Of a DNA stretch of 64,000 nt, positions 4,895-54,782 are shown piece after piece. The notes under the pieces are model-generated. The model did not search any database and was not told the origin of the DNA. It saw only the letters and a list, made by a program, of their open reading frames with translations. The position numbers and the translations under genes are program-made. The DNA is from Asparagopsis taxiformis (Eukaryota > Rhodophyta > Florideophyceae > Bonnemaisoniales > Bonnemaisoniaceae), in assembly GCA_030407315.1 (NCBI GenBank), contig JALQPE010000012.1, positions 248,001-312,000 on the forward strand, read 5' to 3'. The stretch's first letter is position 1. The number at the start of each line of letters is the position of its first letter.

Positions 4895-7800
4895 ATGGCC
4901 ATCCTCAATGCGGAAGATGAGGCTCACAGCAGCTCTCCTACTGCCCGCCGCTGTCCTCATCGCTCCGGCCTGTTTGTTCGCACTCTTGTTCCGAAAGGCG
5001 CTGTCTCTCGCAGTATATCATGTTCTATGGTCCCTCCCCATGCTATGACCAGAAGGACGCGCGGCTCTCCCGCTTCTTTGCGCTCCTGCAGACAAGTAGT
5101 CATTTCCAGGGATACCTCCATACAGGTATTGGCAGTTGATGATGAAACCCTGTCCTTGCGCCCTCTCGTTGATCTCATGCTTTTTACACGAATATACGAC
5201 ATTGCCGCTATAAGCAGTCCCGTTCCTGGTCGAGACGTTCTAGTGGTACTCAACGAATCTTCCAAGGTGAGCTTTATGCAATTTGACGATCATACCAGTC
5301 GTTTGCGTTGTTCTGGCGAAGTCAATCTCTCGTCCGTGACTTGCACACATCTCGATAACCCACTTCGAAGTCAAGCTAGACTCCTCGCCACCCATCCAAC
5401 CAAACGAATGGTCGCTGTCGCTGGGTTGCAATCATTCATATCTGTTTTCCCAGTCCTATTTCTGCCCAAACAAGTCAACGCTGGTAAGATAGCTACTGTC
5501 GCAGTCAATGGAGTTATCTTGTCCCTTGACTTTCTTGAAGATGAAGAGGGTGTACCTGGTGATGCAATTCTCTTAGCACTTCTACAGCGAGGCAAGGAAC
5601 AGGTAATTGATTTGTACACTGTTGGTGTTCCACCTGATTCTGGCGGTGGCCTTTCAGTTACTTTTGTTGGTTCGATGATTACCTGCGCCTCGCACCCAGA
5701 CGATGTCGCTGTTGCGCGAGCAACTTACAAATTGACCGGTGAAACAGTCCGTCCAACTCCTCCAGCTGTTGCTGTAACACGCCTTGCTGGTTGCCCTTAC
5801 TTGTTTGCTGTTTTTGTGAATGGAAAGGTCATTGCGGGTGACGCTCGAAGTGTAATTGTCAACGCCCATTGTGGTGGCAGTTTACCCATGAGTGTTCGTA
5901 TTGAGGATAACATTGTAATTCCCAATCATGCATCGAATCAAAGGGATCATGCTGCAATAAACCAGCGTCATTCTACCAATGCAAGTGCTGTTTCCAATGA
6001 TGGCAGAGGTTTATTTGTTGATCGAATTGCTCAAGGGCAAGATGTTCCTCATCAGCAGGACGATCATGGCCAAATATCTGGACTACCACTTGCTGCAGCC
6101 TCTACTGCAAACAGAGAAGGCATCATGAGACTTCAAGAACTTCGTGAATACGAAGTGCATTCTTCATTGGATTCTGCGGAACAAGGGAATGAAGAGCAGG
6201 ACAATGAACAAATGCAAAATGTAAGTGACAATTCCGCTACGGGTCTGTACAGGTTTCCGGGAGTACGGGCGTTGAGGTCTGGTGAAGAAGACGCCCGTTC
6301 TCCTCAGTTGGCAAGTTCTCGAAGTGGAACTATCTTAAAGACTCCTTTCAAGATGAGGCCAGGTAGTCGAAATATGGGCGAAGACTACCTGTCCTACTTA
6401 TTTATTCCGGCTTATATAACTTTAGATGTAGGAGATTCAAATGGCGTGGCAACTGCATGGGTCGACGCCAAAGACCATTTTCGAGATGAGGCTGGTGATG
6501 GTAGCGGTTTGTACTTCGTGATGGAAAGTGGGGCAATGTTTGCATTGAAGTGGAGCGACCAGGCTCAAAAGGGTTCCATCAGGATCCCTGGGGGCGAACG
6601 TACTCGAACGGCACCAAAGCGTAACTTCAGTGTAGTGTTCATTGGAGATGTTGGTCCTGCTGTTTCTATTGCGTCCTTGGATCGCCAGCTGCTTTACATT
6701 GCAAACGATGGTGCGGATGGATCTCTTAGACGATTGCATACGCCATCTTCCAACCATGCGATATCCGAAATACCCCATGCTTCTCGCCAAGGTTTCAAGC
6801 AAACAAGTAACGTAGACATTCGACGCTACGGGCTGGAAGTGCGACAAGAATTTCCAAACCTTTCTCCAATCTCTGACCTTGCCGTCATACCACCCTCTGG
6901 ACGACCAAATCGGCAAAGGGGAGAAAATTCACAAGTCTTGCTTTCTTTACAAGGGGAGGAGATTGAAGATAAACCTTCTCAATCGACTTCAGTCCATAAG
7001 CGAAGTACATCCCGTACTCTTCCTTTTTGTAGTGAACAATTGCACTTAACATCAGTGGCTGGAGACCACTTGTTGGTTGATGGTATAACGCAGGAGCGTA
7101 CTCCACGAAAGAATAAGCTCCCTAGTAAGATTCCGACTACAGCCTGGGAGGAGCAATCTGCATTCGAACATGTAATGTTTGGCGGAAATATGGAAGCTGA
7201 GCTCGTAGTTTGCTCTGGTATAGGAAGGCACGGCAGCATACGACTTATCCGACCTGGTTCCCCAGTGAGTTTATTTGCATCAAGCGCAAGCGTATTCACC
7301 GCTTGCAATAATATCTGGCCGTCTCGATTTACAAGAGACTCTCAGCATGATGCAGGGCTTATACTTACCTTTGCAGAGTCAACTGGGGTTCTTTATACAA
7401 TGCCTATTGATGATGCGGAGCAATACCGACGCAAGCGAATGTCTCCTATGATTGCAAGATTGGTCGATGGTACGAAATCACTAGGATTCCATTCAATCTG
7501 CAGAACAATTGCATGCGGTTTGATAGCAGATGGTGTCTTGATTCAAGTTCATGAGAAAGGCATCCGTGGTGTCGTTTTGAAGAAAGCAGGGGACGTGAGC
7601 GTCAATATCGGTCCAAATGATCAATCTGTGACCGAATCTGTGTTTGAGAACCAATTCGATTGGATTCCACCGGAAGGCGGGTTTATTTCTGTGGGAGCTG
7701 TAGGGGCTGGGTTTGTTGTGGTATGCAGTGTTCGGAGGGGACCGAAACAACCCGTGCTTTATCTATTGAGCATGCATCCGTCCGATCCCAATCTTGGCTT

Positions 7801-10387
7801 ATTCATTGTCTCTTCAGTTGAACTCGATCAAGAGTTGAGCTGTATTTCTATACCTGAATGGACATTAGCAGAAGCAGAGCTTGATTTGATGAGTCGTTTT
7901 CCCCCCATTGTTGTGCTTGGAACTTACGCGCCCTCTATAGAAGTGCGTATTTTGGGCCCAGCTCTGGAGCTTATTGATGTGCAACGAGTTACCCCATGGA
8001 CCTTAGCACGCACAGGAAGGTCTATAAACGAAGCTTCTGTTACCACTCCCGGTTTATCAGACGGGAATCCAGAGATTGAAAGCTCGCCCTTGGGAAAGCG
8101 AGTCCCTAAATCACAAAGACGGGATACATGTGAAATGGCCGCTGTTCCAGAGAGTATTTGTGGCCTAGAAATGGATGGTCGGCGTTTAGTGTTTGCAGGT
8201 TTGAGGGATGGCTCTGTTCTGGGGTTTTCTTTCAGTGAGATGGGCGGGCCAGGCCAACATGACGCGCGGTCTCCTTGCTCAACAGGCCATCTTCGCCTTG
8301 ATTTCCATCGAAAGCTTGGCTATATCCCGGTTATGCTTGAGAGTGCTACAGTTGCACTTGGCAAGGTTGTCATAGGACAAGCAGAACGCCCATGGATGTG
8401 TGTAGGTATTGGTGGTGGCAAAATGAAATGGACGCCTTTAGCATTCACAGAAACGAGGGCTTTATGTCCGATATCGGTTCTCGGAGCTGAGCGCTGTTTA
8501 GCAATTGTGGCTGTCGATGATGCTCTTCACATCTGTGGTATTCGACAGCAATACGAGACGTCTGTACGTTCCATTCACGTAGGCGTTACTCCTCGCCGTG
8601 TATTGGTTGTTGATTCTCCGAAAGATTCAATTGTTGTTGCAACATGTCGAGAACCTGGTTTCATGGAAAGAACACCGTCAAGAAACCGTCGTACTTCAAA
8701 AGCACAAACAATTGATGATACAACTGCAGCCAAAGTGCATTCAGAGCTTCGCGTTTACGATAGGAAGTCTAGATCGATGTCCGGGCATACCTCACTCCAT
8801 CCTGGGGAGTTGGTGCATATTTTGTTGAATTGGCTCAGTTTCATAGTTGTTGGGACTTCATGTGACATTCGAGACTGTAATGATTCCATGTCGCACAACC
8901 CTTGTAAGAGGGGAAGATTATTGCTATATTCTTTGTGTTCACATGGAGGTTCAAAACCAAGCTCTTCACAAGAATCTCGCAGAAAGTTTGCCCTCTGCAG
9001 CGAAGTTGTGTTTCCGGGAGCTGTGTTAGCAGGGGCTGTGCATCCTGAAGCAGAAATCTTAGTCGTGTCATGCAACGAGGAGGTATTGGTATTTGGCGTT
9101 TCAAAGTCTCATTCTGTGTTGATGGAAATTGCACGAACTTCTGCAAGAGCTGTGGTGGTGAGTATTTCAATCCATCAGGACATCATATGTGTAGTGGACA
9201 GAAAAGACTCTGTAGGTTTCTTCCAACTGCAGTCAAATCCAGTGGAGCTCATTCGTGACCGAGGTGATCATCGAAGGAGAATAGTATCGGAAGCGGCAAT
9301 GTTAAACAGGACTGTTGCCATGGCTGTTGATCGATTTGGATGTATTTTCTCTGTCGGATATGAAGAGGGTGACGCGCCAGCCTATGCGAACATTACCTTA
9401 CGAGGAGGGTCGCTTACGTCAAGTTTTCTTCGTAGTAATAACTCCAGCGTCCAGCATCTTGGATTGACTGCAGAAGTTGAGACAGGTGAAGTATCAACTG
9501 CTGTTGGACTAGGAGAAGAATTTGACGTCATGCTTCAAGAAAGTGGATCTGAACATACTAACGGAAGTAATGATCAGATTCTAGATGACTCGGGAGAATC
9601 ATCGATAGTGGAAGCTGTTGATGAAGTTGCCGATTCAGACCAAGGAGCTGATGCAGAAGGTGGCGATGGCGAAGGCGCAGGAGAGCACGCAAACAGTGCT
9701 TCGGCAGAGAGCGAAACTGTACAAGGTGATGCAAATGATGTAGGCACTGATGTGGCGGATGGCACATTGACAACTGAGGAAGTGATAATGACGGATGGAC
9801 ACGAAGCTGGTACCATAGAAGGTACAGACAATGCAGGTCTGAATACGGGCTCAGCTCAAGTAGGAAATCGGGTCTTACGTGTGGACCATGATTCTGTGCC
9901 TCGTAACTTAGCTTGCCATCACAGTTTCAACATGGATGATACTTCTCTTTGTGTTCGAGTTGGACATTTTGGTCACAGCGAAAACTTGGAGGGCAGTGAG
10001 TGTAATGATCTGCTGAACATCATTGAGAAAAGTAGTGATAAACGCGACGGGAACAGTCCAGTTGTGTTTTGCGGGACATTGGGAGGAGCAATTATTACTG
10101 CAGTGACTGTACCGCCTCAAGTGTTCTCAATATTGAGTGAGGTGGAAGGATACGTAAGCCAACATTGTGATATAGCTGGGCCTGCACTGGGGCACAGTCA
10201 CAAGCGATTCCGTGCTGCATATGGTTTTGAAGCTGTTGGAACGGTAGATGGCGATCTCCTGAGTCAATTTAGTTACCTCGACTATGGCTCAAAGTTATCC
10301 ATAGCAGGTCAAGCAGGTTGCGCAGGGGAGGAAGGGGTACTCCACATCGAAGGATTGATTGCGACTGTTTTCGACAGAGTGTCATGA
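4895..10387 (+). CDS. Very large CPSF-A/DDB1/SF3B3-superfamily protein
   Basis: 1,830 residues in one exon. The N-terminal third looks like the MMS1_N beta-propeller (LRPLVDLMLFTRIYDIAAIS followed by GRDVLVVLNESSKVSFMQFD). A middle signature near residues 755-790 (AELVVCSGIGRHGSIRLIRP) matches the 'ELVVCSG.G..GSLR..R' segment of DDB1/SF3B3/CPSF160. The CPSF-A domain begins near residue 1283 (ELRVYDRKS, FIVVGTS, RGRLLLYSL). It closes with VVFCGTLGGAIITAVTV and FEAVGTVDGDLLSQF, the usual end of the fold. Family members are scaffolds for Cullin-4 ligases, U2 snRNP or mRNA 3'-end processing. Usual lengths are about 1,100-1,450, so this one is much longer. Extra material includes a polar insert around residues 350-490 and an acidic run at about 1529-1650. 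Which of the three roles applies cannot be told from sequence alone. Confidence 0.75.
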   Translation: MAILNAEDEAHSSSPTARRCPHRSGLFVRTLVPKGAVSRSISCSMVPPHAMTRRTRGSPASLRSCRQVVISRDTSIQVLAVDDETLSLRPLVDLMLFTRIYDIAAISSPVPGRDVLVVLNESSKVSFMQFDDHTSRLRCSGEVNLSSVTCTHLDNPLRSQARLLATHPTKRMVAVAGLQSFISVFPVLFLPKQVNAGKIATVAVNGVILSLDFLEDEEGVPGDAILLALLQRGKEQVIDLYTVGVPPDSGGGLSVTFVGSMITCASHPDDVAVARATYKLTGETVRPTPPAVAVTRLAGCPYLFAVFVNGKVIAGDARSVIVNAHCGGSLPMSVRIEDNIVIPNHASNQRDHAAINQRHSTNASAVSNDGRGLFVDRIAQGQDVPHQQDDHGQISGLPLAAASTANREGIMRLQELREYEVHSSLDSAEQGNEEQDNEQMQNVSDNSATGLYRFPGVRALRSGEEDARSPQLASSRSGTILKTPFKMRPGSRNMGEDYLSYLFIPAYITLDVGDSNGVATAWVDAKDHFRDEAGDGSGLYFVMESGAMFALKWSDQAQKGSIRIPGGERTRTAPKRNFSVVFIGDVGPAVSIASLDRQLLYIANDGADGSLRRLHTPSSNHAISEIPHASRQGFKQTSNVDIRRYGLEVRQEFPNLSPISDLAVIPPSGRPNRQRGENSQVLLSLQGEEIEDKPSQSTSVHKRSTSRTLPFCSEQLHLTSVAGDHLLVDGITQERTPRKNKLPSKIPTTAWEEQSAFEHVMFGGNMEAELVVCSGIGRHGSIRLIRPGSPVSLFASSASVFTACNNIWPSRFTRDSQHDAGLILTFAESTGVLYTMPIDDAEQYRRKRMSPMIARLVDGTKSLGFHSICRTIACGLIADGVLIQVHEKGIRGVVLKKAGDVSVNIGPNDQSVTESVFENQFDWIPPEGGFISVGAVGAGFVVVCSVRRGPKQPVLYLLSMHPSDPNLGLFIVSSVELDQELSCISIPEWTLAEAELDLMSRFPPIVVLGTYAPSIEVRILGPALELIDVQRVTPWTLARTGRSINEASVTTPGLSDGNPEIESSPLGKRVPKSQRRDTCEMAAVPESICGLEMDGRRLVFAGLRDGSVLGFSFSEMGGPGQHDARSPCSTGHLRLDFHRKLGYIPVMLESATVALGKVVIGQAERPWMCVGIGGGKMKWTPLAFTETRALCPISVLGAERCLAIVAVDDALHICGIRQQYETSVRSIHVGVTPRRVLVVDSPKDSIVVATCREPGFMERTPSRNRRTSKAQTIDDTTAAKVHSELRVYDRKSRSMSGHTSLHPGELVHILLNWLSFIVVGTSCDIRDCNDSMSHNPCKRGRLLLYSLCSHGGSKPSSSQESRRKFALCSEVVFPGAVLAGAVHPEAEILVVSCNEEVLVFGVSKSHSVLMEIARTSARAVVVSISIHQDIICVVDRKDSVGFFQLQSNPVELIRDRGDHRRRIVSEAAMLNRTVAMAVDRFGCIFSVGYEEGDAPAYANITLRGGSLTSSFLRSNNSSVQHLGLTAEVETGEVSTAVGLGEEFDVMLQESGSEHTNGSNDQILDDSGESSIVEAVDEVADSDQGADAEGGDGEGAGEHANSASAESETVQGDANDVGTDVADGTLTTEEVIMTDGHEAGTIEGTDNAGLNTGSAQVGNRVLRVDHDSVPRNLACHHSFNMDDTSLCVRVGHFGHSENLEGSECNDLLNIIEKSSDKRDGNSPVVFCGTLGGAIITAVTVPPQVFSILSEVEGYVSQHCDIAGPALGHSHKRFRAAYGFEAVGTVDGDLLSQFSYLDYGSKLSIAGQAGCAGEEGVLHIEGLIATVFDRVS

Positions 10388-10677: not shown

Positions 10678-11076
10678 TCATTTGTGTGCAGCGCCTCCAA
10701 GCTGAGAAACCATGGCATCAACACAGTCCAGCTCCTGCATGTCGAGTGATTCGGGAGTGTCGTCAGCATTAATTCGGTGGCCATCGAAAAGGAAACGATA
10801 AGCACCAGACTGTGTTCCCATACGCGTGCAGTACGCATCCATTAACTTCTTCAGCTGTGTAGTCTTCTTGATTTTGAACTGTACTTCATTTCCCTCAGCA
10901 TCGCGGACCTATGAGAAGACGGAAAGATAGGCGAATAGGTGGTTAGAAGGCGTAAAAGATAAGGGATTGCTCCAGTTGAGATGTATTATCGAACCTACTT
11001 TGATGTTGATTTGTTCACCAGGATCCGGCTTGGCGTCCACTTGGGGCTTTGTATCCTCTGAAGCTTTGTCCGTCAT
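10678..11076 (-). CDS. SUMO (small ubiquitin-like modifier), two exons
   Basis: Exon 1 is 11076-10999 (26 codons), exon 2 is 10908-10678 (76 codons plus stop), giving 102 residues. The intron (10998-10909, 90 bp) begins GTAGGT and ends CATAG. The split falls inside the SUMO signature INIK|VRDAEGNEVQFKIKKTT. It continues with QLKKLMDAYCTRMG, YRFLFDGHRI and TPESLDMQELDCVDAM. The C-terminus is QLGGAAHK: the diglycine used for conjugation to lysines is followed by AAHK, which a SUMO protease must remove. The N-terminal 20 residues are the usual flexible tail. The single intron was missed by simple ORF reading because exon 1 runs on into it. It is a housekeeping nuclear gene and gives a reference for splice sites in this genome. 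Confidence 0.96.
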
Positions 11077-13890
11077 GGCGCTGACAAATGGTCTCACACA
11101 ATAGTTGTGGGCTCGCTCGCTGGTCTCGAGGTAAAGGCAGGACAGTCGCAGCCGCCGGACTGAACGTTGCTACTGGTACGAGTCGTCTGGGCTTTCAAGC
11201 TTCTAGAACATAGTCCACTGTTGGATCACATCACTCAACGCCTGTTTTGGCGCCAAAGAAAGCGCCATACCCGTGCCGTACAGCTCCACAGCCAACGAAT
11301 GAATTTCAAAAGCTTACTCTCGCACCCAATTACGATGGCTTCTCAATCGAAAGGGAGAGGACCGATAGGACCAAATTCAATCCCAGAAAATATTTCAGTT
11401 CCCAAAAGGTCCTTTTGGTCCAGTACATGATAAATTTTCTGGCCATCACAGGTCCATTTCATTTTTCGAAACTTCAAAACGCCACCACATTCAGCTGAGT
11501 AACACGTGGAATCGTTTGTTGGATGATCTAATTTTATCGAATTATTGAAGGCAAACCTAGCTAGTCTAAATCTGGAACTGATTCAAGAGCACTTCTGGTC
11601 CATCAGATATGTTGATGTGAACCTTTTCGAAGTACTGTTCATCTTTAATATTCTTGCTGTCAATGATTTATGCTGGCGCAGTCTGAGGCTCAGGTAGGGT
11701 GAGCAGAGCTCGCTACGGAAGTTGAGAAAAGGACAGGGTAGAAATAGTTCACTTCGAACAGTAAACTATTTGAAAATGGTCGTCAGATGGGGATACTGTA
11801 ACGTCCAATTTAGGCGATCCGCGTAGGTCCAGGCTACTGAAGTACCTAATGATAGATTGTACTCCACATTATAACTCATTACATTGAATAGGCTCCATAA
11901 TAGCAGCATTAAACTAGATACAGTATAGTAATCTCTACTATAAGGTGCAAAGAGAAGCTAGTATCACACCTTACGCTGAACATCGGTGCATTTGCTATCG
12001 CTAGGCAATTGTAGTGATTTCATTTGTCAACAAGCTAATCTAAAATTCTACGAAGGAGATGCCAGAATGACAGCATGGCGAGTTCCTAGCTTGATCATAT
12101 AACCCAGTAACTAGCAATCCCAAGTTGAGCCGAAATGAGTTCCAGTTAGTGACCCTCGAAAGTTTATTCAAAATTAAGTAAAGTTTTAGCCAATGAAATC
12201 AAAAGAAAGTAAATGAATCGCCCAATCTGCGATCTTTCCAAAACTCCATTCAATTACATTTACAGTGTGAAATTAAAGTCCAACACAGCTGCCGAGAGAA
12301 TAACGTTTTAATTAAAAATTTAGGGCTCTCGTTGTCAACTTTCGTCGAATGTTTTGCGAGAAAGCTACGCTGATGCAGTTTCTACTCCAAAAACCATTCT
12401 GTTATACTACCATCAACTTCTTCAAAGCTACAGGATGAAGTATGGGAGACGTTTAGAGGCCCTCAGGGCGTGAAAGGCTAGAATAGAACGCGTACAAATT
12501 TATTTTTTTCGGGAGAGCACGGAGTATCCTTGGGAGTACGCAGGTGATTTAGTTCTGATATAAATTTTTATTTGTACTATAAATAATCAAAATAATTGAA
12601 CGGTCAGTACTACCAATTTTGCCCATTATTTTATGCCATATGAATAAAAGGAAATCGGTAGCACTGTACTGTCAAGTTGATTAATCCTCACTGACTCGAA
12701 CGGTAAGACCAGAACATGGGGCTTGTGTTGATTGGGAGTTAGAGTATAGGATTAGAGGGAGACAATAAATTGGTCTGTAATCTAATCTTACTTGTGGACT
12801 ACTACAAGTTGCAAGTCTTCCGCGTGGGCAGTTAAATCTGTACTGGAGGTTGCTTGTAGCATAATGAGAGAATGATTGAGATGCCAGTCACGTCAGTGCG
12901 CAGAATCAATTTCAGGAATGCAGTAAAGCAGGGATCCATTGGTCGTTCTTCAACACGAGCTTAGTTCAATTTATGTTTTCTAATCCTTGATGCCCTCGCG
13001 GATAACTGAGATACCTAAACTCAGTAATCTGCATGAAAATATCGGATACTACAGCTCTTTAACTTTATCAAGAAATGTGAAACGTAGTAAAACACTGTTA
13101 GAGTAGGTTTGTGGATACGAAAACTCCCATTCTACTAAGGTTACCATCCATTACCTGGAACTCGCACCGAGACAAAATTAAGTGAAGTTAGTATAGCTGT
13201 CACTCAGTCGCGGAGGGTGTATTTTGGACGGTGCGAACACCCACCGCTGCAGCGTGACAGTAGACTTCTCGCACCCGCCGCCGGCGAGCCGACAGCAATG
13301 CTTTAAAATAGATTTTTCGTGGAAAATTGAAGAAAAATGGAACTTTAGATAGGATTGAACCGTTGCTTCGCTTCAGCGAATATGCACGGCAGCAATAATT
13401 TAATTTAGTTTAGTTCAATTTCTTCGCCTCGTATAAAATTGTAATTGCGATCAATCCGAATATGATAACTTAAGGTAGGTAAAAGAATGTGTTCTAGTAG
13501 GGCCAAAAATACAGCAATGAAATAAATTAGTCTGGGACAATTGGGGACACTAGCACGTAATTTAGGGTTATTCAAAAACTGGGTGGCAATTGGCCAACGT
13601 ATGATGACTTCGAGTAAGCAATAAATGGACGCCACACGCAAGCACATTGGGGGGGGATACTGTGGGGCTGTTACTGCTTGCAAACTTGTCTAAGTGCAGC
13701 ACAGTGTTTATTGGAGAGCTAAACAAGCTGCACTGTATATCACGCAACAGTAAATTTTCTCTGATAGCACCATCTATCATAGTAGGCCATATTGTACCCG
13801 AAATGCATACAAATACTAAGTTGTAGCACCAGTTTTTTTATCGACCCTCTTGAGAGCACTATGAAAGCGGGTTCTATTTCTCCATCTTCT
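11077..13890. other. AT-rich gene-poor stretch
   Basis: About 2.8 kb without a supported gene. Base composition is clearly more AT-rich than the flanking genes and the chromoviruses. A frame at 11247-11498 starts with a non-ATG codon and has no recognisable domain. A short GC-rich island occurs near 13205-13300. I see no tRNA, LTR or tandem array. The stretch may be decayed transposon DNA continuous with the recombinase remnant to its right. Confidence 0.5.
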
Positions 13891-16413: not shown

Positions 16414-16447
16414 CGTCTGTGTTTTCGGAAGTGGACGCGGACGTCCA
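16414..16447 (+). repeat. Left terminal inverted repeat of T1
   Basis: Reads CGTCTGTGTTTTCGGAAGTG then GACGCGGACGTCCA. It matches the reverse complement of 27450-27483 with few mismatches and the left end of T2 at 54749 exactly. Confidence 0.9.
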
Positions 16448-16545
16448 GTCTCTCTAGTACGGGTCCTAGTCGGCCCCGAGATTTACTAGAACAAATGAAC
16501 GTCCGCGTCCAAAAAAAAATAAAAATTTTTTGGATGCGGACGTCC

Positions 16546-16890
16546 ACTTTCTCTAGTACATATGGCGGAATACTAGGGCCCGACATCCACTTTCTCTAGT
16601 ACATATGGCGGAATACTAGGGCCCGACATCCACTTTCTCTAGTACATATGGCGGAATACTAGGACCCGACATCCACTTTCTCTAGTACATATGGCGGAAT
16701 ACTAGGGCCCGACATCCACTTTCTCTAGTACATATGGCGGAATACTAGGACCCGACATCCACTTTCTCTAGTACATATGGCGGAATACTAGGACCCGACA
16801 TCCACTTTCTCTAGTACGTTTGGCGGAATACTAGGACCCGACATCCACTTTCTCTAGTACATATGGCGCAATACTAGGGCCCGACATCCA
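16546..16890. repeat. Subterminal array, eight 43-bp units
   Basis: Eight head-to-tail units of CTTTCTCTAGTACATATGGC followed by GGAATACTAGGRCCCGACAT and CCA. T2 has only three. The units carry CTAGTA and a degenerate GGACGTCC-like edge that also appear in the terminal repeats and near the right end (27280-27450), so they are likely transposase binding sites. Unit sequence and count are seen; the binding role is inferred. Confidence 0.9.
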
Positions 16891-17014
16891 GTATACAATA
16901 TATCAGCGAAAACCGGGAGGGAAGAAATTACAGCAGATGGTAAATTCAGGGCCCATATCGGACCGTATTTTATTCTCTCATTTAGGAAACTGCTCGTATA
17001 CAATACGTCTCTCT

Positions 17015-17205
17015 AGAATAGGGAATACATATCTGGTCAGAATAGGAAATAAATACCCGGTTAGAATAGGAAATACGTATCCAGCCAGAATACGGAATAT
17101 GTATCCTGCCAGAATACGAAATACGTATCCAGCCAGAATACGGAATATGTATCCAGCCAAAATACGAAATACGTATCCAGCCAGAATACAAAATACCTGT
17201 CAGCA
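17015..17205. repeat. 24-bp tandem array in T1
   Basis: About eight units of GAATACGGAATATGTATCCA plus GCCA with small changes. Because 24 is a multiple of 3, it gives false repeat ORFs in several frames. The same array is in T2 at about 55130-55315. Confidence 0.85.
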
Positions 17206-17359
17206 TACCGTCGATCACCCATCTCCCTCACTATCGCGTTCTCCCTACCATCCGAACGCCATGCACCACCATCCGCACATACTTCAAGAACCCTCACGAC
17301 CTAGATTACAAAAAATCTGCTCCTTCCAAATACCATCCCCGCTTTCCTCGACACCACCC

Positions 17360-19113
17360 CAGCCCATTAAATCATCAAGACATCAAACACGAACATGGTC
17401 AGCAAAATCTTACACCACTTGAAACCCACTCTCACTTCTATCGTATGCCCGAAAATATACACATACCAGAAACACCTCACAGCTTCATTCCCCATCTTCC
17501 TAGATCCCTTCTTCACTCTCCTTCAGTCCTGCCGTTCCTGCTTCACCACTCCTGCATCACATACACAACATCAACCCCAACAGTCAGATTCAAAAGCAAC
17601 GCTTACCACGACAGATATCTTAGAAAATCCCTTACTTACCTCTCATCCATCCTACACACAATACAAACCATGATCCAAAAACCTTGCAATGAATAATCAA
17701 AGTCAGCAGTCCATATCTTCGCAAAACAAGTCTTGGCGCTCAATGAAACTTACCTTCTGTCATCACCATTCCAGCATCACCTGCATAAAATCGAAATCAA
17801 CAACAACAGTCGGACTCAAAACCCACATGTCCCTCTCAGCATACTCTCAAAACTTCCGCACTTTCCTTCGCTCGACACAATACGCACCATGACTGGATAA
17901 GCTTCCAATGAATAAATATCGCATTAACTGCAATAGTCAGATTCGAAACAAACACTTCTCTCGATGCATACCCTCAGAACTCACTTACTCTCGTTTCATT
18001 CTACACACAATACAGACCAAAAGTCGAAAATCTCACAACCAACAAATGAAGTCAACATTCCGCATCTTCGCACCACCGGACTGCGCGCTAAATGCAACTT
18101 ACCTTCCGTCATCACCATTCCTGCATCACCTACAAAAAATCGAAATCAACAACAACAGTCGGACTGAAAACCCATGCTTCCCTCGCTGCATACCCTCAGA
18201 ACTCACTTACCCTCGTTGTATCCTGCACACAATAGAAACCATAAGTCAAAAATTGTACAAAAAATGTAGTCAGCATTCCATATCTTCGCGCAACTTAACT
18301 AGGCGCTCAATGTAACTTACCTTCCGTCATCACCATTCCAGAATCACCTACACAAAATCAACATCAACCACAGCAGTCAGACTCAAAACCCACATTCCAC
18401 TCACTGCACCCCTCAAATGCTCGCCTACCTCCCTTCCACCCTTCAGCAAATATGCACCATGACTCACTAAGCTCCCAATAAATAAATATTGCATAAAAGA
18501 CGACAGTCAAATTTAAAACAAACACTTCCTTCGCTTCATACCCTCAGGACGCACTTAACCTCTTCATCTCGTTGCATCATACAAACAATACAACCAATAA
18601 TTCACAAATCGTGCAACGAAAAAATGTAGTCAGCATTCCATTTCATCGCGAAACCCGTCTTTCAGCTCAATGAAACTTACCTTACTTCATCACTATTCCT
18701 GCACCACCTATACAACATCAAAATGAACCAGAACAGTCAGACTAAAAACCCATGCATCCCTTATTGCACACCCGCGAGACTCACTTACTTACCTGCCTCC
18801 CATGGTTCACAACATGCAAACCATGACTCACGAAGCTTCTAATGAATCAATATCGCATCAACGACAACAGTACGACTCAAAACACACGCTTCCCTCGCTG
18901 CATACTCTCCAAACTGGCATACTCACCGTCGTTCTATCCTCTACACCAAACAAAGGAAACACGACCAAAGAACCTCAGCCAGTGACGGCGGAGAAGTGGA
19001 ATTCCACAGGTTAACCTGCGGCGTCGACTGGACAGCTTTCAACGTCAGCTTAAGTCCTGCTGTGCATACTCCATATCATCGCCGGTATTGAGATTAATAA
19101 TGGCCCAAGCCAT
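17360..19113 (-). other. Candidate microexon gene of T1 (broken copy)
   Basis: On the minus strand, four 27-nt segments (18707-18681, 18347-18321, 18129-18103, 17780-17754) alternate with four 12-nt segments (18440-18429, 18222-18211, 18000-17989, 17651-17640). Each is preceded by AG (mostly TAG or CAG) and followed by GT, usually GTAAGT. Gaps are mostly 81 or about 100 nt. Joined in phase they read a 13-residue repeat, G-D-A-G-M-V-M-T-E-G-W-M-R. Copies at 18681 and 17989 carry stops in that frame, and the terminal exon has an early TGA, so this copy looks dead. A TATA-like ATATATAT at 19171-19178 lies about 58 nt upstream of a minus-strand ATG at 19113. The 5' exon structure is unresolved. 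Splicing is inferred only. Confidence 0.4.
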
Positions 19114-19488
19114 GGTCTCTGAACTCCCGAATGATGAGATCCGGATCGAGAACATCGGAATGGTATAATCATATATATCACAATCCATTTGCTTCCCTTA
19201 AATGATCCCTGTAATATCCACTGTAAAGCACAAACTTATTCCATGAAGTTCGCAATTAATATAATTTTATTATTTCAAATGAATTAATTGAAAATCCATC
19301 TCCCACGGCGGTCATTCGTCCTTCCAAGCGCACGTTGCCAGCAAAATGTGTGACCTAGCGGTGATGATTGATCGCTCAGGCACATTCCACCATTGGGCTG
19401 CCAGAAGTGAGCACAAAACTGATACCCACAAAACCACGAGAACATTACAAACGAGGTCTCGAACGCACATTTGGAATACAATATAAAT

Positions 19489-20750
19489 ACTATACAACAA
19501 ACTCTACTCGCTATCTCAGACGACGCGGCTCACAAGTGGCGTAGTCCCAATTTCCGTAACGCCTTTCCTGATGCTTAAAAGTAAAAAACACGTCAAAACG
19601 TATATCAGAAATGAGTGCGAGAGTTTTCTGCACAGGAGATGCTGAGCCACCAAATTGATTTTTCGGAAATTTTAGAATTTCTGGGCTGGCCAGCAATGCA
19701 ATCGAGCTGGACATCCACCGGACGTCCATTTCAGGTTGGTCGTGTGCTGCCCACATCCATGCATTGCAGCAACTAAGCAGGCGGGCTCACTACTCATACA
19801 AAGTGCACGGAATATGAGTAACGTGATGTGTGAGTGTTGTTTGTCGTGAGGATGTAAGGTGGGACCATGATGAAACAGTGAAAAAAATGTCTCCCTAGCA
19901 TAACTTGGGCTTGAAGCCTGGAATCGACCCTTCGTAAGACGCGATTTCGGCTTACAGTTAGTGCTTACCGAAGCCAGTGATGACCCCGGTCGGGGCGGCA
20001 GCCGGTTCCTGGGGCCGTTGTGGCCAAATTAGACACCTTGATTTGAATTGAAATTTGGGCTATTCTCAAAAACATGCACATGTGAACATGTTTTTGAGAT
20101 GGGGGTCTGCCGTACGGCACAATCGACCCGCCCAAATCGATGATTTTTCACAATTTTTTTCTGCCCGAAATTTTAGAATTTCTGGGCTCGCCAGCAATGC
20201 AATTGAGCCGGACATCCACCAGACGTCCATTCTGGGTTGTTCGTATGCTGCTCACATCTACGCATTACAGCAACCACGCAGGCGGGCCCACTGCTCATAC
20301 GAAGTGCACGTAGCATGTGCAGCATGATGGATGAGCAGTGTTTGTCGTGAGAAAGTGGAGTGGGAGCATGTCGAAACAAGGACCAAAACTTCGCCCTGGC
20401 GTATTGAGCCTGAGCCTGGAATCGATCCTTCGTGAGATGTGGCTTTGCTTACAGTTGGTGCTTACAGAAGCCAGCGATGGCCCCGCTCGGGGCGTCGGAT
20501 GGCTTCTTCTGGGGCCGTTGTGGCCAGATTAGACACCTTGATTTGAATTGAATTTTGAGCCATTCTCAAAAACATGCACATGTGAACATGTTTTTGAGAT
20601 GGGGGTGTGCCGTACGGCACTTTCGACCGCCCAAATCGATGTATTTTTGCATTTTTTTTCTGACTGAAATTTTAGAATTTCTGGCTCGCCAGCAATGCAA
20701 TTGCGCTGGTCATTCACCGGACGTCTATATGCGCTCAAGCGATTGCTGTC
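19489..20750 (+). repeat. Left arm of foldback inside T1
   Basis: Inverted copy of 24410-26046, starting ACTATACAACAAAC. Long stretches are identical; for example the 273-bp frame at 20055-20327 recurs exactly on the minus strand at 24815-25087. The arm contains repeated units of the twin-palindrome family (hairpins at 20065-20098 and 20565-20598). Confidence 0.85.
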
Positions 20751-20957
20751 TGCTTCAAATACCTGATACATTATTGCCCCACACGACATAAAGTCCCCCA
20801 ACATGCGACGCCCATCAAACATAAACATTTTCATGCTCTTACTACATTCTAGTCGCACACATACATCCATCTTCAAACAAAAAATGTCATTTAAACACCA
20901 CCAGTCCCGCTTCATCGTACGCCAATACCGCCCAGTCGCCCAGCAGACAAGGTAGCC

Positions 20958-21311
20958 GTGCAGAAAATAAGCACTGCCATCTACGACGGAAACGACTGGA
21001 TCTCATCATCGCTCTCAGCATTTCCAACAAGCCCAACATGTTTCCCCTACGTCACCCTGCAAAACGATACCATTGTATACTTCTGCATTCTCCGTCAATT
21101 GCATTCATTCAATCTGCGCAATGAATTCTTCAATCTCGAAGCCGGCCGGGTTTTCTGCCCATCCTGCAATAAGGGCATTGGAGAAAGTTCTCTAGCAATG
21201 GCCACTAAAGCCTTGATGCAACTACACGGTGCTGATTGCTTCTATCGCTTCCTTAAATCTGTCGACATTTACAACATACCATCCATCCGACACATTTCCA
21301 AACTAAACTAG
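20958..21311 (+). CDS. Small hypothetical ORF in foldback interior
   Basis: 117 codons starting at an ATG. Contains one CxxC pair (FCPSCNKG) and an aromatic-rich middle. No family recognised and no conserved copy in T2. It may be a fragment of an older gene captured between the inverted arms, or chance. Confidence 0.2.
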   Translation: MQKISTAIYDGNDWISSSLSAFPTSPTCFPYVTLQNDTIVYFCILRQLHSFNLRNEFFNLEAGRVFCPSCNKGIGESSLAMATKALMQLHGADCFYRFLKSVDIYNIPSIRHISKLN

Positions 21312-24004
21312 ACTGTTCATTGACAAACTCGTGTGTAGCCCCATTTAGACCACTCACCACTGGTATCTGCTGAGTCACCGCGCACGGCCCTGGTGCTCCC
21401 TCCTGAATTCGCTTGGGCCGTCTCAATACATTCCGTACTATGCCTATGAAGCAGTCCCGTTATGGATCAGCGTTCTGCGTGTTCAGCACATCATCCCCAC
21501 GTTACCAGAGCTGCAATTTCTCAGCGGTACGGGTATCATCAATCCTTAGCACAGATGTGATACAGCAGCCGATGCAGGTCAATTTCTAGACTCGTAATTT
21601 TGCACTCAAGAAGGGAGATCGGTATGGAAATTGTCCAGGCATAACAAACCGCCTGTCCTGCTCTCCTGCAGAGCAAGCTTCATCGATCCAGTCGATCAGG
21701 AACCTGACGACATGTAGTCGGCGTTCGTTCCGGACGCGGAAAGGGCAAATTTTTGTGTGGCGTTTGCAGATTCAGTCGCAACGGGAAGCGATGAAACTTT
21801 CCGCATGGCGTTTGACTGCGGTTTATCTGAGACAGACATCGAGCGATCGGTGTTTCTGTCCAGATGAAGCTGGAGATCAATGCCGTATTTGAGCTGATAA
21901 TTGGAGCAAAGATTTGAAACAAATTTTCTGTGCAAATTTACGACGCGACACGGCGGAGGGTGGATAACTCAACGTTAGATGTTATTGGTTGAGCCAACAT
22001 TACAAGACCGTACCGACGACACGCGCAATCATTGATTTTTCGCTCATTGCTTAGAGAGCAAAACTGTCCAATGGTCGTATCAAGTTAGACCAGCACATAT
22101 TTCCGCAACATCTTGGTGGAACGAAGTCGGTGCTCACGAAAGCCTGAGAGCTGCCTTGAGTCGAGGATTTTGTACGCCGCCTTATCTGTGGTAGTTTCAT
22201 ACTGCGTTGTTTCACCGTTGGACTTGTGCCACGCACACTTGGATCTCTCTCCATACGTACGTGTAGATAAGATGTGAATTGAGCTACAATAGCATACCAA
22301 ACTGGAAACCAGTATCTACATGCTTTGTGAGAATATAATGCCTCTTCCTCGAGAAAAGGCCTCCTTCGGAATACTAGATTTCATTCAACCATATCCATCC
22401 ATCTCCCATCGCTTCAGCATGAAATCATCACCATTCCATCCATCGCAACGTTCGTCTCTATCCAAAAACTACTCTCCACACATCTCCCCGATCTTTCAGT
22501 CCGACCGTACCCGGCGGCGGCCGAGAGAAACGTACTGGCCATTGTTAAAAGTATCTACGACGGCAATGAGCGCATATATTAAATCATTCTCTATGTGAAC
22601 ACAGACCCTAATTGCCTCTCGTTTGTGGCAGAAATGAAACAAACACAAAGACTGCAACTCGTCCATGCGAGAAGCAAAAGCTACAGATTTTTAGCAAGTA
22701 TCGATAGCTACAAAGAACCACTGCAACGTTTATTCTAGACTTGTATACATTTTCATTAGCACTTACATTACCATACACGAATAGTATTGCATTAAAGATT
22801 TTTATGAGAATGACAGGGGTCAGCGGCCGGGTTCCCTCCAGCTCAGCTTGGCTCAGCTCCGGATGCAGATGTGGTGAAGGGAAGAGAGAAAAGTCAGATA
22901 TTCTACCATGATCTGATTTGATTTGCAATCCGAGAACTTCTTGACTCCCAAAAGGTGTAAACAGTATCCCTGCATATTGGCATCGACCAAAAGAACTGCA
23001 GCACTAACTCAATTTTCATTGCAGAGATCAGCACAACGTATTCGTCTTGAGTGTCACAAGTTGCAATTAGATGGCGCTGACTCGAAGCTAGGAGAGTTGG
23101 TAGTTGTGCCGAGTCGGCGTCTTCGGTTTGATCGCTCGTCTAAATATCCAAGCAAAATGGCAGGCAAGGAGATACAAAGCCACGCAACAATCAAGCTTAC
23201 CACATTCCCCAGCCAGAATCACCATAGAAATCCTTGCCGTCTGCATCACACAGATCATCTTACGCAGTGCGTGCTGCCCAGGTCGTTATTCGGCCCTATC
23301 CAGAAACACTTTCAGGCCTAGTGCAACCAGTAGATCTGAAATGGAAATGGACGTCCGGTGAATGACCAGCGCAATTGCATTGCTGGCGAGCCCAGAAATT
23401 CTAAAATTTCAGTCAGAAAAAAAATGCAAAAATACATCGATTTGGGCGGTCGAAAGTGCCGTACGGCACACCCCCATCTCAAAAACATGTTCACATGTGC
23501 ATGTTTTTGAGAATAGCCCAAAAAATAAAGCAATTCAGGACGTCCGCCGGACATAGGCTTGATTCTAATTTGGCCACAACGGCCCCAGAAGCTACCAAGC
23601 GCCCCGAGCGGCCCCTCCCCGCTCACTTACCCACTCACGCCCATCTTGCAGAAACGTTCCTGCTGGCCTCATCCATGCCTTCACATCCACATCATAATCC
23701 TCTGCTGAGCTGTTCACCTTGGACGCTCACTGGAAGTACTCGTCTTCGACGTCCGCCAATGCAGGACAACACCATGAATACTAAACCCACCGTGGATCTC
23801 AGTCATCAACGGTGGGCGTCCTATAAATGACTGCTATAGAACCATTGCCCCAAGCCCTCCAGTTTGGACGCTCAGCCAACAGCGATTGCTGCTCTACCTC
23901 CTTGGTCGTTCTCCGATGCATGTAAATGCGCCAAAGTACGACCGATGGGGCAGTCCAAACTTTTTGTACCAGTGCACGCCTAGGGATACCACAAGGTTCG
24001 TCAT

Positions 24005-24058
24005 ACACACACAAAGACACAAACACACAAAGACACAAAGACACAAACACACAAACAA
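24005..24058. repeat. CA-rich microsatellite
   Basis: Irregular run of ACACAAAGACACAAACACAC units. It produces low-complexity frames on both strands that are not genes. Confidence 0.85.
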
Positions 24059-24409
24059 CCACGCACTGCAGCACCCAACTTTCGCATGCGTCAGTGATGT
24101 GCTGCTGCAGTGTATATGCGCTGTGCGGTAGCAAGATTTCCATGCTTGCAGCCATTCACATCCAGACATCCAGCCGCCGACCAGGGAAGCCGTTTGCAGC
24201 CGATTCCCCCTTGTCTGCATGGCATCTCGGTGCTGTCAACACTTGCTTAGTTGCTGCGATGCGAGCAAATGTGCAGCACTAGCCTAACTTGAAATGGACG
24301 TCGAGTGGAAGTCCGGCTCGGTTACATTGCTGGTCAGCCCTGAAATTCTAAAATGTTGGGCTGAGAAATAGCTGCAAAACTGTATCCATGTGCAATACTC
24401 GACCAACCT

Positions 24410-26046
24410 GAAATGGACGTCCGGTGAATGTCCAGCTCAATTGCATTGCTGGCGAGCCCAGAAATTCTAAAATTTCAGTCAGAAAAAAAATGCAAAAATA
24501 CATCGATTTGGGCGGTCGAAAGTGCCGTACGGCACACCCCCATCTCAAAAACATGTTCACATGTGCATGTTTTTGAGAATGGCTCAAAATTCAATTCAAA
24601 TCAAGGTGTCTAATCTGGCCACAACGGCCCCAGAAGAAGCCATCCGACGCCCCGAGCGGGGCCATCGCTGGCTTCTGTAAGCACCAACTGTAAGCAAAGC
24701 CACATCTCACGAAGGATCGATTCCAGGCTCAGGCTCAATACGCCAGGGCGAAGTTTTGGTCCTTGTTTCGACATGCTCCCACTCCACTTTCTCACGACAA
24801 ACACTGCTCATCCATCATGCTGCACATGCTACGTGCACTTCGTATGAGCAGTGGGCCCGCCTGCGTGGTTGCTGTAATGCGTAGATGTGAGCAGCATACG
24901 AACAACCCAGAATGGACGTCTGGTGGATGTCCGGCTCAATTGCATTGCTGGCGAGCCCAGAAATTCTAAAATTTCGGGCAGAAAAAAATTGTGAAAAATC
25001 ATCGATTTGGGCGGGTCGATTGTGCCGTACGGCAGACCCCCATCTCAAAAACATGTTCACATGTGCATGTTTTTGAGAATAGCCCAAATTTCAATTCAAA
25101 TCAAGGTGTCTAATTTGGCCACAACGGCCCCAGGAACCGGCTGCCGCCCCGACCGGGGTCATCACTGGCTTCGGTAAGCACTAACTGTAAGCCGAAATCG
25201 CGTCTTACGAAGGGTCGATTCCAGGCTTCAAGCCCAAGTTATGCTAGGGAGACATCTTTTTCACTGTTTCATCATGGTCCCACCTTACATCCTCACGACA
25301 AACAACACTCACACATCACGTTACTCATATTCCGTGCACTTTGTATGAGTAGTGAGCCCGCCTGCTTAGTTGCTGCAATGCATGGATGTGGGCAGCACAC
25401 GACCAACCTGAAATGGACGTCCGGTGGATGTCCAGCTCGATTGCACTGCTGGCCAGCCCAAAAATTCTAAAATTTCGGGCAGAAAAAAATTGTGAAAAAT
25501 CATCGATTTGGGCGGGTCGATTGTGCCGTACGGCAGACCCCCATCTCAAAAACATGTTCACATGTGCATGTTTTTGAGAATAGCCCAAATTTCAATTCAA
25601 ATCAAGGTGTCTAATTTGGCCACAACGGCCCCAGGAACCGGCTGCCGCCCCGACCGGGGTCATCACTGGCTTCTGTAAGCACCAACTGTAAGCCAAAATC
25701 GCGTCTTACGAAGGGTCGATTTCAGGCTCAACACGTCAGGGACAGGTCTTGGTCCTTGTTTCATCATGGTCCCGCCCTACTCTCTCACGATCAACCTGAA
25801 ATGGACGTCCGGTGGATGTCCAGCTCGATTGCATTGCTGGCCAGCCCAGAAATTCTAAAATTTCCGAAAAATCAATTTTGTGGCCCAGCATCTCCTGTGC
25901 CGAAAATTCCCGCGCTCACTTGTGATATACGTCTAGACGTGTTTCGCACTTGTACGCATCAGGGAAGGCGTCACGGAAGGTTGAGACTACGCTACTTGTG
26001 TACCGCGTCGTCTGAAATAGCGAGTAGTGTTTGTTGTATAGTTGTG
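24410..26046 (-). repeat. Right arm of foldback inside T1
   Basis: Inverted relative to 19489-20750 with one extra unit (around 25385-25790). Hairpins at 24544-24577, 25044-25077 and 25545-25578. Each unit also has an A-box-like and a B-box-like motif (for example 25116-25127 and 25212-25222). Confidence 0.85.
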
Positions 26047-26172
26047 GAGTATGCGTCTGGTGGTTTGTAAAGCTTGCAGAACGGGATAGGGATGTGGGTG
26101 GCTCCATTTTATGAATACATGAATACAAATATTCAGGGTTGACAAAGCGGAAAGGCATAGGCTCATACATGT

Positions 26173-26514
26173 TTGAGATTGCATAGTGGAGAAAATATTT
26201 ACATCGAAATTTACATGGAAGAGATGGAGGTTTTAAGGATGAGGTATGAGAGGAAGAAAATTCTTCTGTGGTATGAGGATGTGTTCTGTGGGGGTGGATG
26301 GAATCTTGGGATGGGATGGTACAGGGGGAAGTGGAAATGTACGGAGTGCGGGTTTAGATTGGAGTGTGATTCGGAGAGGAGTGCCGACAAGCATATTATG
26401 GGGATTGGGGAGACGCTGCGGGGTGTTGGGGTAGTGAGGGCGGAGGAGGTGTTTAGGTGGGACCGTAGGAGGGTGCGGTTGAAGGCCCGGGAGGAGGGGG
26501 TTTTAGGAAAGTGA
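26173..26514 (+). CDS. Hypothetical ORF with zinc-finger-like CxxC, T1 right part
   Basis: 113 codons; an inner ATG at 26217 is a plausible start. A segment WKCTECGFRLECDSERSADK followed by H resembles a partial C2H2 finger. It opens a strongly G-rich stretch (26230-26900) with no further clear coding. It may be a remnant of a transposon gene. The proline-rich minus-strand frames here mirror the base skew and are not genes. Confidence 0.25.
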   Translation: MRLHSGENIYIEIYMEEMEVLRMRYERKKILLWYEDVFCGGGWNLGMGWYRGKWKCTECGFRLECDSERSADKHIMGIGETLRGVGVVRAEEVFRWDRRRVRLKAREEGVLGK

Positions 26515-27449
26515 GGAGAAAGAGGTGGGAAGGGGGGTGGCGTCTGTTCTGGCTGTGGTGAGTGGGGATGTGATGGGGAAGAAGAGGGTTATTGTATTTG
26601 GGGAGGGAGGAGAGTGGGAGGATGGGTGCGAAGTGGGGGGTTGATATGTGGTTCAGAGCGGGGAGGTTTCTGGGGAGACGGCGGGGGAGCGGGAGCGTGG
26701 GCCGGTGGTGGTGGTGGTGGTGTATACGGTATCGAAGATGCGGATGGCGTGGGGGCATGTAGCAGGTGAGGGAGGGAGGGGTGGAGCAGGTCGAAGAGTA
26801 AGCTGCAGGGGAAGTTTGTGGAGAGGGCGAAGGAGAGGGGTTGAAGGTAGAGGAGAGAGGGTATTGAAGAACAATACGTTGCAAAGGTGATGGGGGAGAG
26901 CATGGTCGAGGGGATAGGGGATGTTTTCCCTATTCTGAGGTAGTATGAGGACTGGTTATAAGAAATCTGTACGGTAGAGCAGAAAAGTAGGTATGGAATG
27001 GAGGTGTGCACCGTGGAAGCGGGGATAGGTAGCTGAAAATGCGTTCTAGAGTGGTATTGGGGGTGTTTGAGGTACAGTACGGGGGAGGTGAGCACCAAAT
27101 GGAAGGGGGTGTGAGCGAGAGGATGAAAAAATTAAAGACAAAATTGGAGTCGACCGACAAGGAAAAATAGAGTGGTCGCCGTGATGGATGCGGACATCCA
27201 TGTCGAGCAAGGCGGCAGAAATTTCTGGGGTCGAAATTTTTGAATTTCTGAACCGGCGCCCGTCCTAGGTTGACATAGACATGGCGGAAGTCCATCCCGA
27301 GGGGGACATCCGTGGTACTAGAAACAATGAATGTCGCCCTAGTAATACTAGACGTACTAGACCGCATGGACGTCCGGTTCTAGGCGGACATCCAAAAATA
27401 CTGGAGAACATGGACGTCCGCCTAGTAATACTAGGTGTACTAGAGGTTG

Positions 27450-27483
27450 TGGACGTCCGCGTCCATTTCCGAGAACACAGACG
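27450..27483 (-). repeat. Right terminal inverted repeat of T1
   Basis: Reverse complement reads CGTCTGTGTTCTCGGAAATG then GACGCGGACGTCCA, pairing with the left end. It is preceded by several GGACGTCC and CTAGTA motifs (27290-27440). Confidence 0.9.
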
Positions 27484-27485
27484 AA

Positions 27486-28917
27486 GCTCAAACGTGAGCT
27501 GGAGGGACTTTTCCCTACGTTAAAGCCGTTCTCCGGCCGGAATCCGATTACGTTGCTCGGATTCCTCGCCCAAATACGTGATGGGTTCAGCACACTCGGA
27601 GTGTGCGAGGGAGTGGCAGTACGTGCGCTGCACTTCTTCCTCGAAGGGGACGCCCGACGGTTCTACGATTCCCAGTGTACGACTGGTGTGATCACGACTG
27701 ATCCGACGAAGAGGTTCTCGTGGCCTCACGTAATCAACGCGTTGATTAAACGTTACCTGCAAGACGACGTGCTGCAGGAGGCCTACGAAAAGGTCACGAT
27801 GATCACGCAGAGTCCTAACGAGGACGAGAATCAGTACGCTGATAGACTCGACACCGCCACGCGGGCGTGCAACTACGTGTTTACGGACCGACTCCTCGTC
27901 CACCACTACGTGCGTGGTTTGCTGCCCTCGACGCGGGCAGCCGTGACGGAACGACTCCGGTCACTCCCCGAACGAGAGAGGAACGACCTCACCGTTGTGA
28001 GACGATTGGCGACGGCCGAAGGAACGACCTTCCGTGCACGTACGGCAGCTGTCGCGTCAGCCGCGAAACCGAAAGTGCGGTTTCCGGTGAAGCCTACGTT
28101 GGCTATTTCCGACCACGAGTCGAGGAAGTTCGCGGACTACGATGAGTCCGCGTACTTACGTAATGAACGGGCTAGCGAGCCCAGTTACCACGATGGTAAC
28201 CCGAACATCCCCGCTAGGGATGATGACGACGTGTCGCTCGCTGCGGCTCACGTTGCCGAGAATTTGGAGGCAATCCTCTTCACGAACGGGCCGCCGCCCA
28301 ACGATACGAAAACGGCAAACGAAAAGCTGGACGAGCTCGAAGCTCGATTGAACCGTCCATGCGAGGACGTGCCGAAGCTCACGAGCGAGCAGACGCAATT
28401 GGCGCACTCCGTAATCCCGAATGATTACTGGACGCTGTCGTGTTGGTCATGCCGCGAAGATGGCCACTCGACGTTTACGTGTCCGCGTCTGACGCCAGAT
28501 CAACGGATCTTTTTCGCGTACAAGTACTACCTCTTCCACGTGAAGAGAAACCCACGTCAGGCTGAGTACTTCCGCCAACGAATGGCAAAACGTAACCAGG
28601 AACGACCTGGTGAGCGAGGGAACGTGACCCCGCGGAGGTACGGCACGCCGCCTACGATACTCCGAAACCCCAATCGTGACGGGGGAAGGCCCTTCGACAG
28701 GCGCCGCGGCGATTTTCGTAATGACCGACGTGACCCCCGCCCGTGGGCGAACGAACGAAATGGCCAGCGTAATGGCCGCAGCGGAGTCTACGTGACGACT
28801 TCCGCTGACGAAACACTACTCGAGGTGGAAACGAGTCACGATGACGAGCGAGCTTCGTGGGCTCACGACGACGACGTGTCGAACGGCCTCGCGCCGGAAA
28901 ACGACCAGGCGATGTAG
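27486..28917 (+). CDS. Gag of element A, C-terminal part with CCHC zinc knuckle
   Basis: Continues the frame of 15440-16413 directly after T1 and its AA duplication, beginning with the codon completed to AAG. The first 120 residues are a retrotransposon gag capsid segment (ITLLGFLAQIRDGFSTLGV, VAVRALHFFLEGDARRFYDS, and ENQYADRLDTATRACNYVF). Near nt 28440-28481 is a CX2CX4HX4C knuckle (CWSCREDGHSTFTC) that binds RNA. The tail is Arg/Asn-rich. Stop TAG at 28915-28917. The protease frame overlaps this end in the -1 frame, so a -1 frameshift is likely used. Confidence 0.9.
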
Positions 28918-54748: not shown

Positions 54749-54782
54749 CGTCTGTGTTTTCGGAAGTGGACGCGGACGTCCA
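54749..54782 (+). repeat. Left terminal inverted repeat of T2
   Basis: Identical to 16414-16447. Flank is GTCTGTG, so with a 2-bp rule the duplicated bases would be TG. Confidence 0.9.

Follow-up and report, generated by a model that had tools for sequence, protein, structure and literature searches.

A tandem array of alternating 27- and 12-nt exon-like segments on the minus strand of Plavaka-type transposons in Asparagopsis taxiformis

Results and discussion

The array of very short exon-like segments on the minus strand of transposon T1, within the 64,000-nt stretch of the Asparagopsis taxiformis genome analysed here (the window), is real and unusual, and it probably represents an accessory unit with introns, carried by a CACTA-related transposon. 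We consider it best explained, with a probability of about 0.6, as a tandemly duplicated, spliced minus-strand accessory transcript of a Plavaka-type transposon that would be selected for splicing over peptide, a reading drawn from the DNA sequence. The first-pass annotation had proposed a transposon gene made from a duplicated two-microexon unit. Its transposon location, minus strand, host-type signals and duplication (seen also in the related element T2 and 29 other loci) were borne out, but its coding gene was not.

Elements carrying the array

T1 occupies 16414–27483, limits that we set from its inverted termini and from AA as a possible target duplication. The terminal inverted repeats (CGTCTGTGTTTTCGG and CCGAGAACACAGACG) span 47 bp with 87% identity, and the possible 2-bp duplication was found at T1 only. 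Subterminal tandem repeats detected in T1 have periods of 43 bp (16539–16890) and 24 bp (17015–17196). No transposase was found in T1, and 19401–27483 holds no ATG-initiated ORF of at least 150 aa. The second element, T2 (54749–64000), agrees with T1 in its left end and in the array; its right end was not found in the window or in the next 5.4 kb. T2 encodes a 1012-aa transposase on the plus strand (57367–60405) with the Plavaka domain PF18759 (profile match 1.1e-22). This domain was shown for T2 only, and T1 is assigned to the Plavaka group because it shares terminus and array with T2; T1 would be a transposase-less derivative that inherited the array unit. Since the T2 transposase lies on the plus strand, divergent from the minus-strand array, the array runs away from the transposase and toward the subterminal repeats.

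The genome searched was the 141-Mb assembly of 3,156 contigs, and searches for element copies scored the most similar copies only. The assembly has 13 matches to the phycobilisome linker domain, so that the host is probably an alga with phycobilisomes. The 45 best-scored of 2540 candidate transposase copies were 98–100% identical to that of T2, which hints at a recent burst as judged from these closest copies. Four other transposase relatives among the matches listed were 30–33% identical, all of them proteins without genomic context.

The array itself is abundant. A strict pattern of the 27-nt segment plus splice sites matched 3,208 genome sites (1680 + 1528), and the exact string TAG-GATGGATGAGAG-GTA matched 1,588; the reversed control gave 0 in both cases. 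At least one 27-mer occurred in 11 of the 12 stretches taken beside transposase matches. From the 3,208 sites we estimate roughly 1,000 arrays in the genome.

Geometry of the segment array

Read along the minus strand of T1, the array opens with the 27-nt segment 27a (18681–18707), which has an in-frame TAA, and a 240-nt gap (18441–18680) that contains two branch-like motifs and may hide a decayed exon. The 12-nt segment 12b (18429–18440), with a weak acceptor (AAG) and a weak donor (GTAGGC), is followed by an intron-like gap of 81 nt (18348–18428, CTGAC at 18380), segment 27b (18321–18347), a 98-nt gap (18223–18320, CTGAC at 18273), segment 12c (18211–18222) and another 81-nt gap (18130–18210) with the variant branch motif TCCGAC. 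Then come 27c (18103–18129), a 102-nt gap (18001–18102) with the variant GTTGAC, 12d (17989–18000), which contains an in-frame TGA, and the second long gap of 208 nt (17781–17988), holding two branch-like motifs and what is left of another exon (CGAAG followed by GAAAGT). The last stretch consists of 27d (17754–17780), a 102-nt gap (17652–17753, CTGAC at 17706), 12e (17640–17651, GATGGATGAGAG), a final gap of 88 nt (17552–17639, CTGAC at 17587) and the start of the last exon (17400–17551), whose frame ends after nine residues in T1 (TGA) and is open in T2 (TCA).

All eight T1 segments thus have the lengths and places first described, in strict 27/12 alternation with AG before and GT after, and the gaps of about 81 and 100 nt with two longer ones were likewise confirmed (81–102 nt, and 240 and 208 nt). 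The splice-type edges reported earlier hold for most of the array: GTAAGT follows seven of eight segments and YAG precedes seven of eight, 12b being the exception both times. They are less secure at 12b and beside the two long gaps, where a second branch-like motif, other AGs and a CTGAC lying 189 and 156 nt from the assigned acceptor make the 12-nt boundaries doubtful. In the last gap the homologous TAG is TAT in T1, and the acceptor before 17551 is shifted; a GCAG 9 nt further on would act in its place.

In T2, alignment placed the corresponding minus-strand segments at 56454–56480 (27-nt #1), 56340–56351 (12-nt #1), 56228–56254 (27-nt #2), 55873–55899 (27-nt #3) and 55759–55770 (12-nt #3). 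The second short segment of T2 (56115–56124, GATGGAACGG) is followed by two candidate donors, GTAAGG and GTGAGT, and breaks the frame with either. The cassette that repeats in tandem is about 220 bp long and combines short exon-like segments with intron-like gaps, two of each. Having arisen by tandem duplication, the units do not count as independent. The array recurs, with varying unit number, in T2 and in 29 further loci that were aligned. Two copies (L037 and L041) hold one 27-mer plus the last exon, one (L034) holds a single 27-mer and one (L044) none; the array is therefore not indispensable for every copy.

Splice signals compared with host introns

As a reference, eight host introns were delimited by eye in five proteasome genes and a SUMO-like gene. 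The latter lies in the window (10678–11169, minus strand, identified by eye from its translation) and contains a 90-nt GTAGGT...CTAAC...ATAG intron, read by eye, in agreement with the 90-bp GT-AG intron noted there before. Six proteasome stretches had been taken. One of these (L047), which resembles a proteasome gene but has broken frames and looks foreign or pseudogenic, was set aside, and introns recognised by their acceptor only in two others (L045 and L046) were left uncounted. All eight host introns have a GT donor (GTAAGT in three), CTAAC or CTGAC 15–42 nt before the end, and YAG. A host gene can also be long and intronless, as seen from an uninterrupted 1830-aa ORF of CPSF1/DDB1/RSE1 type at 4895–10387.

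A CTGAC-like motif occurs in all eight T1 gaps, strictly as CTGAC in six and as TCCGAC or GTTGAC in two. This motif fits the wider branch consensus WCTRAYN and the ACTAACC of Cyanidioschyzon, as given in PMC2483917. When donor, CTRAC at 15–60 nt and YAG were all demanded, four of eight T1 gaps and four of five tested T2 gaps passed. The T1 failures were the two long gaps, taken with their boundaries as first described, and the two with variant branch motifs, and the fifth T2 gap failed solely on its GTACAT donor. In the introns leading from a 27-mer to a 12-mer the branch motif lies 47–52 nt from the acceptor, compared with 15–42 nt in the eight host introns. The T/G-rich tail of the array introns was also seen, by eye, in one proteasome intron (L046).

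A host-like intron model found four non-overlapping introns in T1 and six in T2 on the minus strand and none on the plus strands, while 200 dinucleotide shuffles gave at most two. With tighter donors, three (T1) and six (T2) were found on the minus strand and none on the plus strands, against at most one in 500 shuffles. Such scans often pair the described acceptor with a different donor: two of three tighter-donor matches in T1 and three of six in T2 agree with the described gaps at both ends, and the rest share an acceptor or are new candidates. Given the host-type signals, the minus-strand excess and the low signal variation described below, we favour the interpretation that the gaps of the array are genuine spliceosomal introns, and splicing of an array transcript appears probable on these sequence features.

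Products other than a spliced transcript were weighed against the same signals. Were the product a small RNA, either structured or a guide (intron-borne snoRNAs are an example), the short exons would be by-products. The words TGATGA and CTGA, as in C/D-box RNAs, do recur in the array, but they sit in the 27-mer and in the branch site, and an Rfam scan of the whole window at gathering scores returned nothing, so that we regard this reading as very improbable. A snoRNA array was dropped on these grounds, and group II introns were dropped on the scan of the window only.

Variation between units and between copies

Mean pairwise mismatch among seven units within T1 and T2 was 0.127 for the 27-mers, 0.000 for the GTAAGT that follows them, 0.256 and 0.267 for the two intron bodies and 0.448 for the 12-mers; the last value is inflated because misaligned and decayed copies are included. 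For comparison between copies, 31 loci were tried and 30 arrays were aligned (T2 plus 29 loci). L037 and L041, with fewer than three 27-mers, were dropped, and L034 (one 27-mer), L044 (none) and L010 (the same place as L011) were left out. Splice-motif positions were defined as donor, branch and YAG; T2 was dropped from the counts and identical rows were collapsed, leaving 29 distinct rows.

Variants shared by at least two copies fell on 2 of 122 splice-motif positions versus 63 of 580 intron-body positions (Fisher one-sided p = 0.00027), and counting all variants gave 13/122 versus 136/580 (p = 0.0007); these p-values ignore the kinship of the copies, which were selected by their resemblance to T2 or to the Pfam model. 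In the nine branch motifs taken by themselves a single shared variant was seen, where random blocks averaged 6.7 (19 of 2000 had as few). Neither donors (p = 0.06) nor YAG (p = 0.13) reached significance on their own, so that significance attaches to the branch motifs and the pool only. A narrower count, which omitted one branch motif (T2 index 658) and the ambiguous 12#2 donor, gave 0/104 versus 41/393; the fuller count is the figure used. Shared variants in the short exons amounted to 1 of 34 (p = 0.11). Those in the 27-mers (8 of 81) did not differ from those in the intron bodies. The comparison of divergence in segments and gaps suggested in the first-pass annotation was thus split: between units the 27-mers are half as divergent as the introns, whereas between copies the two are similarly variable (8/81 versus 63/580), and the splice motifs are conserved.

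These counts also bear on the idea of a non-transcribed tandem repeat, consisting either of binding sites for a transposon protein or of the duplicated relic of a captured intron-bearing host gene fragment, with no present splicing. Uptake of a host gene fragment by a transposon is known as Pack-type capture; for a host source gene, DNA searches were run and the best 40 candidates of each were scored. The array adjoins the subterminal repeats, its unit number varies down to none, and the strict branch motif is lost in two T1 gaps, all of which would suit such a repeat. The positions conserved are nevertheless donor and branch motifs, and on one strand only, and we hold a non-transcribed repeat to be rather unlikely. 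A pure subterminal repeat was dropped as a reading of the array.

Coding capacity of the array

Mostly short symmetric exons, a hallmark of micro-exon genes, are present here as the 27- and 12-nt segments. An open frame across the exons, the other hallmark, was not found. The single continuous frame claimed for T1 is interrupted in two of its eight segments: in the phase originally assigned, 18707–18681 reads GGAGIVMK-stop (the TAA of 27a) and 18000–17989 reads E-stop-NE (the TGA of 12d). The second short segment, GATGGAAC(G/A)GGTAA(G/A)GT, breaks the frame in all 30 arrays holding it, as either donor yields a frame-shifting 10-nt exon or a TAA-containing 15-nt exon. This check covered 32 arrays (T2, L011–L030, L032, L033 and L035–L043), of which 28 have GGTAAGG, two (L038 and L043) have GGTAAAG, also with TAA, and two (L037 and L041) gave no match. 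No in-frame second 12-mer was found genome-wide with the one pattern tried. In T2 the frame could be restored by pairing the 10-nt exon with a 5-nt exon (CGAAG), which sits behind a poor acceptor.

At equivalent places in the array, the 12-mers are translated as YNE in T1 and as WMR in T2. In 10 of the 12 rows compared, a stop closes the last exon after nine residues, with TCA at this place in T2 and L011; the open-frame C of T2 is also present in L036, L037, L041 and L042. Conceptual peptides spanning the junctions, built from a few assumed exon joinings and including two T2-type peptides with the 10-nt plus 5-nt reading, were compared with the protein collection, and none of the 238 candidates reached E ≤ 10. 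Likewise, no processed genomic copy of either spliced junction pattern was found at up to two mismatches. Both lineages could encode, as read by eye, a peptide of some 20 residues that begins within a 27-mer, which we regard as chance.

A protein-coding microexon gene would specify a tandem GDAGMVMTE-GWMR peptide, with the T1- and T2-type copies decayed, the exons misread or the stops skipped. Consistent with this, phase 1 alone is open in the 27-mers and is stop-free in 23 of 24 distinct forms (27-mers with up to six substitutions and GTAAGT next, from the fetched loci). The phase-1 pN/pS is 0.65, or 0.44 without 27a, versus more than 2 in the other phases, a ratio that derives from a handful of changes. 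The slower divergence of the 27-mers between units and the little variation of exons 12#1 and 12#3 between copies point the same way. Against it stand the stops in 27a and 12d, the frame-breaking second exon and the search for an in-frame pattern, the YNE/WMR difference, the 27-mers being as variable as introns between copies, and the peptide search without a match. We consider a coding gene unlikely; coding with an open 13-residue repeat, as first described, is not supported, given the T1 stops, the frame-breaking segment (30/30) and the joined peptide without a match.

Proposed mechanism and relation to known systems

Under the favoured interpretation of a spliced accessory transcript, the array would form the body of a minus-strand accessory unit, bordered on one side by the left subterminal repeats and on the other, in a full copy like T2, by the transposase gene. 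Transcription would start between the array and the transposase start, and the host spliceosome would remove the introns and join the 27- and 12-nt exons. The cassette may have been multiplied by unequal exchange and gene conversion, a multiplication tolerated because the exons are symmetric. Selection would hold splicing above any particular peptide. Because the signals are constrained and the exon content has no clear constraint, we suppose a spliced accessory or leader-like RNA; the product would be an RNA that undergoes the processing and export usual for gene products, or it would regulate transposition. A more specific version, to which we give little weight, is that the intron cassette serves splicing itself, the microexons being mere spacers, and that the transcript passes as a normal gene product (spliceosome-licensed, exported and spared RNA silencing) or that splicing controls transposition. 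If this version were true, the cassette would be kept in an estimated 1,000 or so arrays of a very abundant element.

The likeness to Plavaka elements lies in the PF18759 match of the T2 transposase, the terminal inverted repeats and the possible 2-bp target duplication at T1. For Plavaka a 2-bp target duplication is reported, and for its fungal members the termini TGT..ACA or CATCA..TGATG with 2–3 bp duplications (PMC12730594). The termini here, CGTCTG..CAGACG, differ from these published ones, which are fungal, and the passages considered mention no microexon array (PMC12730594).

The best precedent in the superfamily for a many-exon second unit is the tnpA-like genes of CACTA elements (PMC2613891). 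In these related transposons (En/Spm, Tam1, Tgmt*) such a unit also lies beside subterminal repeats, tnpA having 11 exons and Gene-1 of soybean Tgmt* 24 (PMC2613891). In contrast to these genes, the unit described here consists of tandemly arrayed 27- and 12-nt exons and lies on the other strand from the transposase. A tnpA-type accessory gene encodes a protein binding the subterminal repeats, whereas the copies that we examined specify no open protein, and no intact one was recognised.

Schistosome micro-exon genes (MEGs) likewise contain successive exons that are very short and symmetric and whose skipping leaves the frame unchanged (PMC8293314). MEGs, however, are coding genes of worms, whereas the present array belongs to an algal transposon known from sequence alone and has two alternating exon sizes derived from one duplicated cassette and no intact long frame. 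The parallel with the microexon genes of flatworms remains an analogy. Among the non-subscription papers listed, no account of an array of this kind was found.

If spliced, the arrays would supply more than 3,000 near-identical 27-nt microexons and many 12-nt ones in one genome. They would then offer a natural system for studying how the spliceosome copes with exons of this size, and whether introns serve transposons to evade or exploit host RNA surveillance. They also warn that good splice signals in a repeat are no guarantee of a protein product.

Further features of the elements

A short minus-strand ORF (MAWAILNLTAGDDFEYAQQDLSGR..., by eye) lies upstream of the array in T2, from 56918 downwards, and recurs in T2-type copies; it has a one-base shift in T2 itself and a stop in T1 (region near 19113). 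The last exon contains a 42-codon ORF beginning with ATGGGGAATGAAGCT (55485–55613 of the window, minus strand, by eye), which is nearly unchanged between T1 and T2, as is much of the sequence toward the element end. Just upstream of the first 27-mer of T2 is an inverted duplication (56662–56787), 126 bp of which match their own reverse complement; part of it is common to many scored copies, and in others, L021 among them, the form is plainer.

One locus (L014, 1–4400) combines a T2-like array with a right part that is T1-like (99.7% identity to 25251–27487 of the window), and the elements therefore recombine. The interior of T1 contains an inverted repeat pair of 1.06 kb (19666–20728 and 24413–25476, 99.3% identity), with relatives nearby and at 63002–63273. 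About 70 bases past the right end of T1 begins a retrotransposon (27553–33447) with gag, RT, RNase H, integrase and chromodomain matches, which we take to be of Gypsy type.
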